Below, in pieces: positions 9,099 to 56,916 of a stretch of 64,000 bases of DNA. Within the stretch, counting starts at the first letter, position 1. The number at the start of each line of letters is the position of its first letter. This stretch comes from Mesostigma viride. Lineage: Eukaryota; Streptophyta; Mesostigmatophyceae; Mesostigmatales; Mesostigmataceae. The DNA lies in NCBI GenBank assembly GCA_009746045.1, contig RPFO01000156.1, positions 259,278 to 323,277 of the forward strand. The letters run 5' to 3'. The notes under the pieces were generated by a model. It was not told the origin of the DNA. It made no database searches and saw only the letters and a list, made by a program, of their open reading frames with translations. The translations under genes were made by a program, and so were the position numbers.

Positions 9099-9257
9099 AC
9101 CCACCTCCCAGTTCCCATCCTCCCTGTCACAGGACTAAACATCCACCCACCTCCCAGCTCCCGTCCTAAAACAAAATGTCAAGTTTCACCCACCTCCCAG
9201 CCCCCGTCCTACTAAATAGATTTCAAGTTTCACCCACCTCCCAGCCCCCGTCCTACT
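9099..9257 (-). repeat. ~43-bp intronic repeat made from the exon end and its splice donor
   Basis: Four tandem copies of the 3' edge of exon 9282-9495 with its donor (minus strand: GGACGG...CTGGGAG|GTGGGTGAAA) lie just inside the intron at 9225, 9181, 9141 and 9099. Each keeps the GTGGGT donor. A fifth, weaker copy at 8972-8993 runs into the (GGGT)n tract. Confidence 0.85.
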
Positions 9258-9281
9258 AAATAGATTTCAAGTTTCACCCAC

Positions 9282-54300: not shown

Positions 54301-56916
54301 CATCCGTCAACGAGTAAGTGACAGCTGGCATCGCGGCGCCTCGTTGTGGGCATTCCACCCCATGCAGTACGCCAGTATGAGTGGTGGAGGCTTGTCAGTA
54401 TGGGGAGCAGAGGAGGAATTGTGGGACCCGGTGCATTGTGGGACCTGGCATCCGTCAACCAGTCGGTGGTGTGGGTGGAGACGTGCGTGGGGACCTGGCA
54501 CCCGACAACCAGTAGGGGACAGCTGGCATCGCGGCGCCTCGTTTAGGCTGTTTCGTGTGTGCCTCAGCCGGTTGTCGTCAGCAGTACGGGTAGCGAAGAA
54601 ATGCCTGTCAATGTGAAAGTTGCTTGTTGGAGCTAAATATAGCTTCACGGGGCTGCAGAGAGTCTTCTTTGTTTGAGGAGCACGTCTGGACGACTTCGTA
54701 TGTTTGTGAGAGCACTTTTTTTTCCGGTAGGCTTTGTGTTTGTGACATAACGTGGGCTGCCGCATGAAAGAGAAAGATGCTGGGGCCGCTCGCACTCACG
54801 TCCAAGCACGGTCGGGGCGGCAGTCCAAAGCCCTTTTTCCACTATTTTCCCGGCTAGTAATTGTACTACTAGCAGTTATAGCACACTCAATGGATCATAC
54901 TGTGCCACTTTGTGTCCATGCACCCCACTTCCCTGCTCGTTGGCCCTCGCTCTTCGCTCCTTGCCCACATTTCTGTGCCCATGACAACCCTGGCCCCTAA
55001 TACTACGCCCCCACGACCCTGGCCCCTTCATCGTTATTGCCCAGGGTGGTGGCGGCGGCCATCGGTGACGGCAGCGCGTACAAGGTGGTGGCGGGCGACC
55101 AGTTCTGCTACACGGACCCGGTGGACCACAGCGTGTCCAAGAACCAGGGCATTCGCTTCCTGTTTGAGGACGGCTCACGGCTGGTGGGTAACGATGACTT
55201 GTTTATGTGTTTCGATACATGTCTTATATGAACCAAGGCACTTGGGTAGCGATTACTTGTTCACGTGTCGGTAGACGGTCTTATTTGAACCAAGGCATCC
55301 GCGTTCCGTTCGAGCACGACTCGCGGCTTGTGAGTTCTCAATGTGGTGGATTTGGTGATCAGTTGCTTGCGCGTTGGTAGCTTGTTATTTTAAACCAGGG
55401 AATCTGCTTCCTGTTGAAGGAAAGCTCGCAACTGGTGGGTGGCCAGCACATGTTCGCTACTGATTGCTGCTGTGTTTATAGTTATAGTTTCCTATGTAAA
55501 CCAGGGCATCCGTTTCCTGCTTCAGGATGCATCTGTTTAAGGATGCATCACGGGTGGAAGGTGGCGCAGTTGACACTTTCTTACCTGGATGGCGCCCTTG
55601 ATCCGCTCATTTGGGTTGCTTATGTGCTTCAACGACTCGCGTAACTTACCGCGGTTCCTTTTGTTTTGAGGAGATCTCAGCCCCTCCGGGTTGCCGAAGC
55701 GCTTGTGAGAAATATTTGTGGTTTTCTCAGCGCGGCTGCGTAAATGGTGTGCCCAAATAAGAGGTGCACTCTTCTTCGTCCATTTTGGTCATTGGTCCTT
55801 TCTTGCCCCTTTTTTGGTTGCCTCCCTGTCAGGTGCCGATGTTTCTCTCTTTGGGGCTCGTGTGGGTGGGTGGTGGGCAACCAGCGGGCTGGCGGCAACC
55901 TTTCCCTTTGCGTTGGAAAATTCATGTGTAGGAGGTTCCTAGCAAGTGACGTGCCATCTTCTTTGGCACTTAGTTTGCTAAAACGTGAGTGTGCGCCTGA
56001 CACAGAGCTTGACCACAAACAAATGTTCCCTTGCCTTCTCATCTGCTACTATCTGTAGCATACCTTCTTATCTGTAGTATGTTTTCTTTCCTTTGATCCA
56101 TCCCCGGCGCGGTGCAGGTCTTCCGCCTCTCCGGCACAGGCTCCGTGGGCGCGACCATCCGGCTGTACATCGAGCAGTACGAGAAGGATGCGGACAAGCT
56201 GGGGCGGGACACGCACGAGGCGCTCGCGCCGCTGGTGGGTGGCGGGTGTACTGCTCCCTTTTTCATAGTATCGTCGTCGTAGTGATGGTAGTTACCAGTA
56301 GATGCGTTCACTTGGTGGCACATGCACGAAGCGCCCGCGCCGCTGGTTTGTGCAGGGCTATGATAGCGGCTTTGCTGCGTGGTTCACTGTAGACATCGTC
56401 GAGTAGAGTAGACGTGCTCATCGAGTACTGTAGACATGTTCATTTGGTGGGGGTGGCGGAATCGCTGTACCACAGTATAGTTCTAGTGCGGTTGGGTAGC
56501 AGTATTGCATGGGTATGGATATCGCATGACAAATGTGTAGGCCTTAGTTCATGATGGAGTCATTAGGCATTCATGCGTGCTTCAATTCGTGTTCAGCCAA
56601 ACCTTGTACACCTGTGCTGATATACCATCCCCACACGCCACCACCACCACCACTACACCACCAACATTTGACTCGATTGGTTTAATGGGACTCTAGGACA
56701 CCTCGGGATCCACCATGATTGCGACTCGGGCCAAACACCCAGTAGCAACAAACTGCAGGTGGCCGACCTGTGCACGTTTTCTTACCACTGCCTTGTCTTA
56801 TGGTCCTGCCTTGTCTTATGCTTTTATCGTACTGGGTGGTGCAGGTGAAGATCGCGCTGGCGATTTCCAAAATGGAGGAGTACACCGGCAGGACCCGGCC
56901 CACCGTCATCACCTAG
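42347..56916 (+). CDS. pgm: Phosphoglucomutase (alpha-D-phosphohexomutase family)
   Basis: Sixteen exons join without a phase error into 590 residues: 42347-42430, 42569-42650, 43791-43846, 44116-44229, 45280-45342, 45947-46066, 47134-47240, 47709-47768, 48482-48844, 49655-49718, 51426-51507, 53510-53682, 54237-54313, 55045-55183, 56118-56234, 56845-56916. The enzyme interconverts glucose 1-phosphate and glucose 6-phosphate. Landmarks: [10 protein letters not shown] near 20; the phosphoserine loop TASHNPGG (Ser125); the Mg loop DGDADRN (D306, D308, D310, with Ala in place of the usual Gly); the sugar loop GEESFGTGS (392-400); the phosphate loop RLSGTGS (531-537); and the TVIT C-terminus shared by this family. 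Length fits the usual 560-600. No transit peptide is evident, so it is probably cytosolic. Most introns hold decayed copies of the neighbouring exon edge. Confidence 0.96.
43645..43762. repeat. ~54-bp tandem repeat upstream of PGM exon 3
   Basis: Two and a third units of AAGTGACCCCTTATTCCTGT, then TAGGAAATAAACAATGGAAG, then CTTTTCGTGACG. The last partial unit leads straight into the acceptor region of exon 3 at 43791. Confidence 0.9.
44383..44512. repeat. Uninterrupted copy of the dispersed repeat seen at 35.6 kb
   Basis: From ACACATTTCCATCTCCATTC to TTCTGGCCTGCGCTGGTTGT this matches 35598-35792 but has no insertion between GGCAGGCTCGAGCTACC and ATGGTCC. It is therefore an empty-site reference. 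A shorter, third copy lies at 57758-57815. It lies in intron 4 of PGM. Confidence 0.85.
45573..45717. repeat. 41-bp duplication followed by a (TTAA)n tract
   Basis: Two copies of CGGGGATAGCCGGTGCGGAG plus TGTATGATCCAAACGAATAGT flank a short spacer; the second runs into TAATTAATTAATT repeated for about 48 bp. The tract resembles the retroelement tails seen elsewhere, but no hairpin adjoins it. It lies in intron 5 of PGM. Confidence 0.8.
46369..46560. repeat. ~36-bp minisatellite (GGTTATAAGGTAGCTAATAA)
   Basis: Five units of GGTTATAAGGTAGCTAATAA, then CGTTATCGTGGTGGTA lie in intron 6 of PGM. Units are almost identical, so the expansion is recent. Confidence 0.93.
48283..48480 (+). repeat. C-rich (CCCCTC)n tract forming the acceptor of PGM exon 9
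   Basis: About 200 bp of CCCCT and CCCCG units end in CCCCCGCAG|ATACG, so the whole tract is an oversized polypyrimidine tract. The G-rich complement could form quadruplexes. Confidence 0.95.
49719..50640 (+). repeat. ~48-bp G-rich minisatellite seeded at the PGM exon 10 splice donor
   Basis: About 18 units of GTAATGGTTGTAGGGGGGAG, then AAAAGAGAAGCGGTGGGGTG, then GGGTGGG run from the donor itself. The first unit is the real intron start (TTCGAG|GTAATGG), so each unit carries a donor-like GTAATG. Runs of four or more G occur several times per unit, which favours quadruplex formation on the transcript. Frames through it are meaningless. Confidence 0.95.
51530..52640 (+). repeat. Compound repeat: ~20-bp CAGCCATGAAACACCT units plus exon-11 edge copies
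   Basis: Dozens of CTCAGCCCCAGCCATGAAAC units fill the intron. Interspersed at 51616, 52069, 52181 and 52557 are copies of GAGCTTTGGCACCGGTGGGC, the last bases of PGM exon 11 with its donor (51493-51512). Each keeps the GTGGGC or GTGGGT donor. Confidence 0.93.
53784..53885. repeat. 21-bp minisatellite (TTCATATCATAAAGCTGTCCG)
   Basis: Five nearly perfect units lie in intron 12 of PGM. The period is a multiple of three, so a plus frame stays open (IIKLSVH); this is not evidence of coding. Confidence 0.95.
55286..55565 (+). repeat. Three decayed copies of the PGM exon 14 end with its donor
   Basis: The end of exon 14 (AACCAGGGCATTCGCTTCCT through CACGGCTG|GTGGGT) recurs at 55286-55337, 55393-55440 and 55498-55560, spaced about 105 bp. 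The first two keep a GTGAGT or GTGGGT donor. Substitutions and small indels break the reading frame, so they are not alternative exons of full value. Confidence 0.85.

Follow-up and report, generated by a model that had tools for sequence, protein, structure and literature searches.

Copies of exon edges and splice sites within introns of a Mesostigma viride locus

Intron lengthening is poorly explained apart from transposon insertion. New introns of Daphnia pulex contain direct repeats, which PMC4202315 attributes to the repair of staggered double-strand breaks, with passive lengthening as a proposal. The window analyzed here (64,000 nucleotides of nuclear DNA from the streptophyte alga Mesostigma viride) resembles this system in its intron-internal direct repeats, for which passive lengthening is likewise proposed; however, the Daphnia repeats are of 4-17 bases in introns of ~78 bp, whereas the Mesostigma units are mostly 20-60 bp, lie in long introns and in many cases span the junction. 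In duplication-based intron gain, a copied segment also brings exon sequence together with splice signals, and in the potato case an intron-exon structure was copied; this process makes a new intron (PMC4974935, PMC3443670), whereas in Mesostigma an existing border is copied into the same intron, on the same side. Direct repeats near splice sites in PMC11782384 (5' border paired with 3' border; mean of 11.4 bp) were read as insertion scars; the Mesostigma repeats are also located at exon-intron borders, but copy and source lie on the same side and the repeats are for the most part longer. As in intronic minisatellite arrays, the copies form simple tandem repeats in several cases (donors 9282 and 17207; Table 1), but most junctions have one to few spaced, diverged copies. 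The pattern was not found reported in the literature searched, with subscription journals mostly outside its coverage.

Genes of the window and catalogue of copies

Four genes were rebuilt in the window, and all of their 32 introns were GT-AG. Two of the four matched database proteins: the phosphoglucomutase (PGM) product showed full-length identity with P0001 (jgi/Mesvir1/5842) and contained the Pfam PGM domains, and the coiled-coil product was 100% identical to P0121 (jgi/Mesvir1/5839) over 97% of the query, the last intron of this gene being taken from P0121. The annotated proteins of these two longest genes were obtained with the outer splice sites. Exons 2-5 of the minus-strand gene at 9282..12475, which we take to be FAM151-like, matched Pfam Menorin (E 8.8e-20), and the hexapeptide gene at 27996..31319 is presumably gamma-CA-like. 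Only the first of the nine introns of the M. viride PGM paralogue (PGM2) was positioned as in PGM, and this paralogue was therefore unable to date the introns.

Table 1. Genes and exon-edge copies in the window.
Feature	Position	Strand	Details
Menorin/FAM151-like gene	9282..12475	-	5 exons read, 4 introns and 1 open donor at 9282
Coiled-coil gene	15011..27455	+	11 exons, 10 introns, all GT-AG
Gamma-carbonic-anhydrase-like hexapeptide protein gene	27996..31319	-	4 exons, 3 introns; Pfam Hexapep
PGM gene	42347..56916	+	16 exons, 15 introns, all GT-AG; 590 aa
Tandem copies, exon edge and donor at 9282	9099..9281	-	44-bp unit with ~17 exon bases; plain array 9144-9288
Copy, exon edge and donor at 10630	10523..10543	-	90% over 21 bases
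Two decayed copies, exon edge and donor at 12383	12202..12328	-	12202-12224, 12296-12328
Array, exon edge and donor at 17207	17254..17788	+	mostly 23-bp unit, ~17-20 copies; plain tandem part 17261-17656
Three copies, acceptor and exon edge at 19345	19022..19270	+	19022-19064, 19130-19172, 19204-19270
Two copies, exon edge and donor at 22541	22593..22716	+	22593-22638, 22644-22716
Copy, intron end, acceptor and exon edge at 23456	23258..23376	+	AG lost
Copy, acceptor and exon edge at 28238	28525..28571	-	core 21/21 identical
Copy, exon edge at donor 29729	29622..29647	-	absent from the original prediction
Copy, acceptor CAG and first 39 exon bases at 45947	45838..45879	+	90%
Copy, last 54 exon bases and first 7 intron bases, donor 47240	47298..47358	+	97%
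Short copy, exon edge at donor 47768	47830..47846	+	88% over 17 bases
Copy, intron end, acceptor and exon edge at 49655	49399..49500	+	absent from the original prediction
Five copies, exon edge and donor at 51507	51615..52700	+	starts 51615, 52068, 52180, 52556, 52635; within 22-bp array region
Two copies, exon edge and donor at 54313	54441..54548	+	
Four copies, exon edge at donor 55183	55287..55562	+	one ends 13 bases before donor
Copy, exon edge and donor at 56234	56293..56357	+	

The retained cores were 74-100% identical to their sources, and the copies sat on the same side of the intron as the source edge. Units were arranged head to tail at some junctions (9282 and 17207); apart from the arrays, other sequence lay between copies and source, as in the case of the copy at 47298-47358, parted from its source by an unrelated-looking spacer of 50 bases. 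Tandem and spaced copies both occur in this genome. Matches at PGM donor 6, PGM acceptor 11 and coiled-coil donor 8 were dropped as weak or of low complexity from the GT, decoy, geometry, coverage and family counts, and the weak match at PGM acceptor 9 was also dropped from the GT, decoy/geometry and coverage counts, leaving 50 of 54 matches.

Specificity of the copies for their own introns

The terminal 30 exon bases at each junction were scored against their own intron and against every other comparable intron. The own intron was favored over all others by the last 30 exon bases at 12 of the 32 donors and by the first 30 at 5 of the 32 acceptors (1.2 expected in each case), donor 42650 being marginal (score of 21 versus 19). 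With reverse-complemented edges, used as a control, this was found at 1/64 (2.4 expected). Exon pieces 60-120 bases off the edge gave 3/77 (3.0 expected), and pieces 30-60 bases off gave 6/62 (2.4 expected). Exon windows more than ~45 bases off the edge were copied at 0-6%. The exon-edge copies are real, and chance is excluded. They are not introner-like (a statement on exon-edge copies only): the own intron was best at 17 of 64 edges, and matches in other introns were low.

The original prediction had listed 19 junctions, and exon-edge copies were present at 15 of these (11 of 13 donors and 4 of 6 acceptors). Donors 10630, 12383, 17207, 22541, 47240, 47768, 51507, 54313, 55183 and 56234 were each best in their own intron, and the same was found for acceptors 19345, 23456, 28238 and 45947, whereas donor 9282, with its 44-bp tandem array, stood outside this test because it has no bounded intron. 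The remaining four did not hold. At donors 25070 and 49718, an array begins at the junction and copies only ~8 exon bases (by eye) and one exon base, respectively; at acceptor 21192, a 14-bp intron array merely ends at the AG; and acceptor 53510 scored 20 (p 0.12), with a 66% match over ~60 bases. Specificity for the own intron, in four unrelated genes and on both strands, was confirmed. On the other hand, the wording that most introns are affected was too strong, since an edge beating all other introns was found in at least one position in 15/32 introns, and in 13/32 at an edge score of at least 26. Nor are the introns filled with such copies: the exon-edge cores accounted for 4.6% of intron bases, and any local direct duplication for 20.9%.

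On other contigs, the own intron was best at 8 of 31 donors (one doubtful) and 4 of 23 acceptors. Copies were clear there in two of four genes, and one dynein gene had copies at 0/5 donors. The dynein junctions were set by visual inspection of protein matches that had a GT or AG; among the acceptors, 2/20 were unplaceable in one gene set and one in another, and two more of the third dynein gene were omitted. The pattern therefore extends beyond the window. A process that copies borders as such was not established.

Local direct duplication and the excess at borders

Direct duplication was not restricted to exon edges, but was also found within introns away from the junctions and in sequence beyond the four genes. 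At a raw score of 36, the window contained 43 direct pairs within 700 bases, nine at 700-1500 bases and none at 1.5-5 kb, together with a single inverted pair closer than 20 kb. Among pairs of <300 bases at ten other loci, 31 were direct and 4 inverted. When locus L015 (17 direct pairs at 1.5-3.5 kb) was left out, the ratios of direct to inverted pairs were 29:4 (<300 bases), 7:4 (300-700 bases) and 1:2 (700-1500 bases); outside the window, the direct bias was clear only at <300 bases. Local intron repeats were therefore above chance and mostly direct (at the other loci, for pairs of <300 bases), as repair of staggered breaks of the Daphnia type expects. Repeat length, offset and identity showed no measurable difference between pairs at exon edges (n = 17), in intron interiors (n = 23) and elsewhere (n = 15); the P values were 0.55, 0.91 and 0.58, respectively.

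The rate at edges was compared with twice the intron-interior rate, the factor of 2 being for one-sided decay: by argument, exon-edge copies should be recognizable for approximately twice as long because the exon side is undecayed. After removal of low-complexity edges, 26/32 donors and 26/32 acceptors were kept in the window, and 13 and 12 of 16, respectively, on other contigs. Window donors exceeded the doubled rate (10/26 versus 57/1532; P 9e-6 at score 26); the excess was present at scores of 24-28 and weaker at 32 (P 0.086). Window acceptors showed no excess over the doubled rate (5/26; P 0.15). When a simulated second decay of the exon copies replaced the factor of 2, window donors still stood at ~7 times the interior rate and window acceptors at 2.3 times. 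There was no excess on other contigs, either in the 16 fully bounded introns (donors 2/13, acceptors 2/12) or at all placed junctions (donors 5/31, acceptors 3/23); the former count omitted dynein donors whose acceptor was unplaced, including three that had been best in their own intron, and the latter takes in every placed junction. Pooling of the window and other contigs gave 12/39 donors above the doubled rate (P 1e-4), a result driven by the window.

Donor copies were present in the first 160 intron bases in 14/37 and acceptor copies in the last 160 in 3/37 (P 0.005), and the overall donor-acceptor difference was weak (20/63 versus 9/55; P 0.058). In a hand count with arrays taken once, 8 of 17 donor copies lost similarity within 7 bases past the splice site. 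Nine exon-edge families held a copy at least 90% identical, which by rough arithmetic exceeds the expectation for even placement. Introns with copies were not measurably longer. G-rich donors were considered as a cause and rejected: the G content (+1 to +30) was not higher in donors with copies than in those without.

Origin of the copies

The copies probably reflect local direct duplication in general, retained where splicing still relies on the outer site, rather than a special process that copies borders. Segments of mostly ~20-60 bp would be duplicated frequently in the Mesostigma nuclear genome, in direct orientation, and would land in tandem or tens to hundreds of bases off; gap-filled repair of staggered breaks or replication slippage may be the source. 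Duplications wholly within an exon would be purged by selection, whereas one spanning a junction may be tolerated since splicing continues at the outermost site, the new copy becoming intron. An unused copy would then decay at the neutral rate and the exon would not, so that the relic may outlast purely intronic duplicates in recognizability. The net result would be passive lengthening, with border relics inside the intron. Specificity for the own intron, direct orientation, the fall-off with distance, the same geometry elsewhere, the wide range of identities, the same-side position of the copies, the rarity of copies of exon sequence further from the edge, use of the outer sites and the occurrence on other contigs, where edges did not exceed the doubled interior rate, argue for this reading. 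The 97% copy at 47298-47358, spaced from its source, counts against plain tandem duplication, and the donor copies that end close to the splice site (8 of 17), the donor excess (window and pooled), the nine families of at least 90% identity and the limited direct bias outside the window count against the duplication reading as a whole.

A process directed at junctions, in which 5' (and less so 3') splice sites are favored for breakage or template switching by, for example, R-loops, polymerase pausing or chromatin edges, and introns grow from their borders, is possible but rather unlikely. The window and pooled donor excesses, the crowding of donor copies at the intron start and their ends close to the junction are in its favor; however, the other contigs alone lacked an excess, one dynein gene had no donor copies, the geometry was the same as that of interior and other pairs, copy-bearing donors were not G-richer nor their introns longer, and the total donor-acceptor difference was weak. 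In a more specific form, which we consider unlikely, 5' splice sites would be hot spots at which transcription-linked breakage repeatedly places copies of the exon edge with its donor at the beginning of the intron, copies just upstream of acceptors being removed since the first-transcribed site would be used. If so, introns would lengthen from the 5' border, bearing a dated record.

The exon provides an undecayed reference for spotting and roughly dating duplications in introns, and a genome-wide count would therefore separate general local duplication from duplication aimed at splice sites. Junctions with at least two consecutive, near-identical donors are natural experiments on spliceosome choice.

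It is very unlikely that the copies function as decoy or alternative splice sites under selection, as judged from sequence. The GT was kept in 14 of 17 donor copies (arrays counted once), in line with the predicted reservoir of splice sites, but ~11 were expected from an exon identity of 0.81, and preferential retention of GT was not significant (P 0.11). A GT or AG was in place in 30 of the 50 mapped copies; use of these decoys, whose places are approximate where alignments were gapped, would give an in-frame, stop-free product in 0/30 (25 run into a stop and 23 cause a frameshift), which speaks against a usable reservoir.

The birth of introns through tandem duplication of exonic AG|GT segments, with the copies as founding duplicates, would account for exon-like sequence and splice-like signals inside introns, but was rejected as extremely improbable as a general explanation, in agreement with the original prediction, because among 37 introns of at least 330 bases (of 41) the start of the downstream exon was found behind the donor in 0/37 and the end of the upstream exon before the acceptor in 0/37, against 1.0 expected each. 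An artefact of assembly or gene models is hardly credible: the evidence comes from the assembly only, with dynein junctions chosen by eye, but the cores range in identity as given above and, arrays apart, are spaced from their sources, which makes an assembly artefact unlikely, and two genes agree with database proteins and the controls of own versus other introns separate the copies from background.

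Copies of exon edges in neighbouring introns

The four genes modelled in the window contained 32 introns and 64 junctions, plus one open donor (9282). The PGM product was identical across its full length to the database protein jgi/Mesvir1/5842, and the last intron of the coiled-coil gene was added from jgi/Mesvir1/5839; "Mesvir1" presumably denotes Mesostigma viride. For each donor, the preceding 30 exon bases were matched against the opening 700 bases of their own intron and against every other comparable intron; the own intron won outright in 12/32 cases (1.2 expected); the first 30 exon bases after acceptors, treated likewise, gave 5/32 (1.2 expected). 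Wins were 1/64 for reverse complements of the exon edges (2.4 expected), 6/62 and 3/77 for exon pieces 30-60 and 60-120 bases from the edge (2.4 and 3.0 expected), and 1/22 when exon edges were matched to the distal end of introns >1000 bases. Among the 19 junctions listed in the original prediction as having such copies, 15 held as exon copies and four (25070, 49718, 21192 and 53510) did not, while copies at acceptor 49655 and minus-strand donor 29729 had been missed. Of all intron bases, 4.6% lay in exon-edge copy cores and 20.9% in local direct duplications of any kind.

Four genes on other contigs, a second phosphoglucomutase (C313) and three dynein heavy chains (C1690, C2167 and C413), were compared, with junctions placed by homology plus GT or AG and partly by eye. 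In the first three, the own intron won at 7/23 donors (0.51 expected) and 4/18 acceptors (0.44 expected), and no reverse complement scored as high as 26. The second dynein gene gave 0/5 donors and 0/3 acceptors; the fourth gene gave 1/8 and 0/5, the stretch around its single donor match may itself be coding, and one reverse complement reached score 26. The pattern was therefore clear in two of the four genes. The second phosphoglucomutase (locus L009, minus strand) and the PGM gene of the window had only the first intron position in common, indicating that intron positions turned over between these paralogues.

Local direct duplication as a probable general process

At a raw score of 36, direct pairs in the window numbered 43 within 700 bases, 9 at 700-1500 bases, 0 at 1.5-5 kb and 8 farther apart; a single inverted pair was closer than 20 kb and seven lay beyond. 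Ten other loci (94.8 kb) contained 31, 12 and 7 direct and 4, 4 and 2 inverted pairs at <300, 300-700 and 700-1500 bases, respectively. One of them, L015, accounted for 2, 5 and 6 direct pairs in these three distance classes; without it, the direct:inverted ratios were 29:4, 7:4 and 1:2, so that the direct bias outside the window was clear only below 300 bases. Unlike the other loci, L015 was rich in spaced direct repeats, with 17 more direct pairs at 1.5-3.5 kb.

In the window, the 17 exon-edge pairs, which came from a smaller number of junctions, the 23 intron-interior pairs and the 15 remaining pairs did not differ significantly in median repeat length (42, 37 and 33 bases), offset (180, 193 and 168 bases) or identity (86, 89 and 89%), and exon edges therefore appear to share in one general duplication process. 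General local direct duplication, filtered by selection, was the best-supported explanation and is probably the correct one. Duplications would arise through gap-filled staggered breaks or slippage; those internal to exons would vanish, and those spanning a junction would persist as intron. The nearest precedent is Daphnia, for which PMC4202315 ascribes internal repeats in newly gained introns to staggered breaks that lengthen these introns passively. At 47187-47358, a 61-base repeat (97% identical) flanks 50 unrelated-looking bases across the donor, and its copy (47298-47358) ends 7 bases into intron sequence; break repair with filler accounts for this copy more readily than pure slippage. 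The arrangement resembles a long target-site duplication.

Splice junctions compared with intron interiors

Copies in the adjacent intron were found for 0-6% of 30-base windows deep in exons, for 31-38% of those at the exon end next to a donor and for 16% of those at the exon start next to an acceptor; for windows within introns, the share was 10-23% on the donor side and 3-30% on the acceptor side. Since arrays inflate the intron values, the interior background included only windows that were the junction-most copy (57/1532 from donors, 82/1498 from acceptors). In a duplicated intron segment each copy decays, whereas the exon does not, and edges should thus be detectable about twice as often. 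Against this doubled rate, donors in the window were in excess (10/26, P 9e-6, with P 0.086 when the most stringent score was applied) and acceptors were not (5/26, P 0.15). A simulated second decay in place of the factor of 2 left 6.7 donor edges, approximately 7 times the interior rate, and 3.2 acceptor edges, approximately 2.3 times. With the window and the other contigs pooled, donors remained above the doubled rate (12/39 vs 3.5 expected, P 1e-4) and acceptors did not exceed it (7/38, P 0.12).

These donor values favour duplication aimed at the junctions themselves. However, the other contigs alone showed no excess over the doubled rate, either in 16 fully bounded introns (donors 2/13, P 0.59; acceptors 2/12, P 0.41) or at all placed junctions (donors 5/31 vs 4.5 expected; acceptors 3/23 vs 2.7), and this independent set, though small, was weighed strongly because the pattern had been noticed in the window. 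The similar geometry of exon-edge and other pairs also argues against a junction-directed process, which we consider unlikely; that 5' splice sites are hot spots of DNA duplication, with introns lengthening from the 5' border, is likewise improbable.

Intron birth by AG|GT duplication, which predicts a copy of the start of the downstream exon just after the donor and of the end of the upstream exon ahead of the acceptor, was rejected, as both arrangements gave 0/37 wins in the introns of the window and the second phosphoglucomutase. In the same introns, wins numbered 14/37 for the end of the upstream exon within the first 160 intron bases and 3/37 for the start of the downstream exon within the final 160; further bins gave 3/37 and 3/37, then 3, 3, 3 and 1 of 18. 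The shortage near acceptors relative to donors (P 0.005) may reflect selection against competing, first-transcribed sites.

Splice-site retention and repeat content

The copies had also been proposed as a reservoir of alternative splice sites. GT was indeed kept in 14/17 donor copies (arrays counted once), with flanking exon bases 81% identical (P 0.11), and selection was therefore not clear. GT or AG stood at the mapped place, approximate where alignments were gapped, in 30/50 mapped copies; not one of these 30 would yield a product both in frame and free of stops, as 25 run into a stop and 23 change the frame.

The assembly comprises 439.9 Mb; for M. viride, PMC6947507 gives 441.8 Mb, introns averaging 1142 bp in length and a repeat share of 30.1% in intron space. 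The inverted repeat at the window ends perhaps represents two copies of one mobile element.

Genes and repeats in the window
Feature	Position	Strand	Remarks
Phosphoglucomutase (PGM) gene	42347-56916		16 exons joined in frame, GT-AG introns; 590 residues
Coiled-coil gene	15011-27455		Agrees with jgi/Mesvir1/5839 (100% identity across 97% of query)
Menorin/FAM151-like gene		minus	Model built by reading frame
Hexapeptide (gamma-carbonic-anhydrase-like) gene		minus	Model built by reading frame
Reverse-transcriptase-like reading frame	58634-59074		Pfam RVT_1, E 2.8e-9
1.3-kb inverted repeat	1-1297, 60397-61709		89% identical
1-kb direct repeat	3612-4652, 5053-6101		99% identical, 1441 bases apart
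Dispersed element	12535-12713, 35581-35786, 44352-44513, 57761-57824	both	Related stretches; one within PGM intron 4
Simple repeats and satellite	61407-62375, 62908-63635		Long GAGG and TGCG arrays, then four copies of a 184-bp satellite
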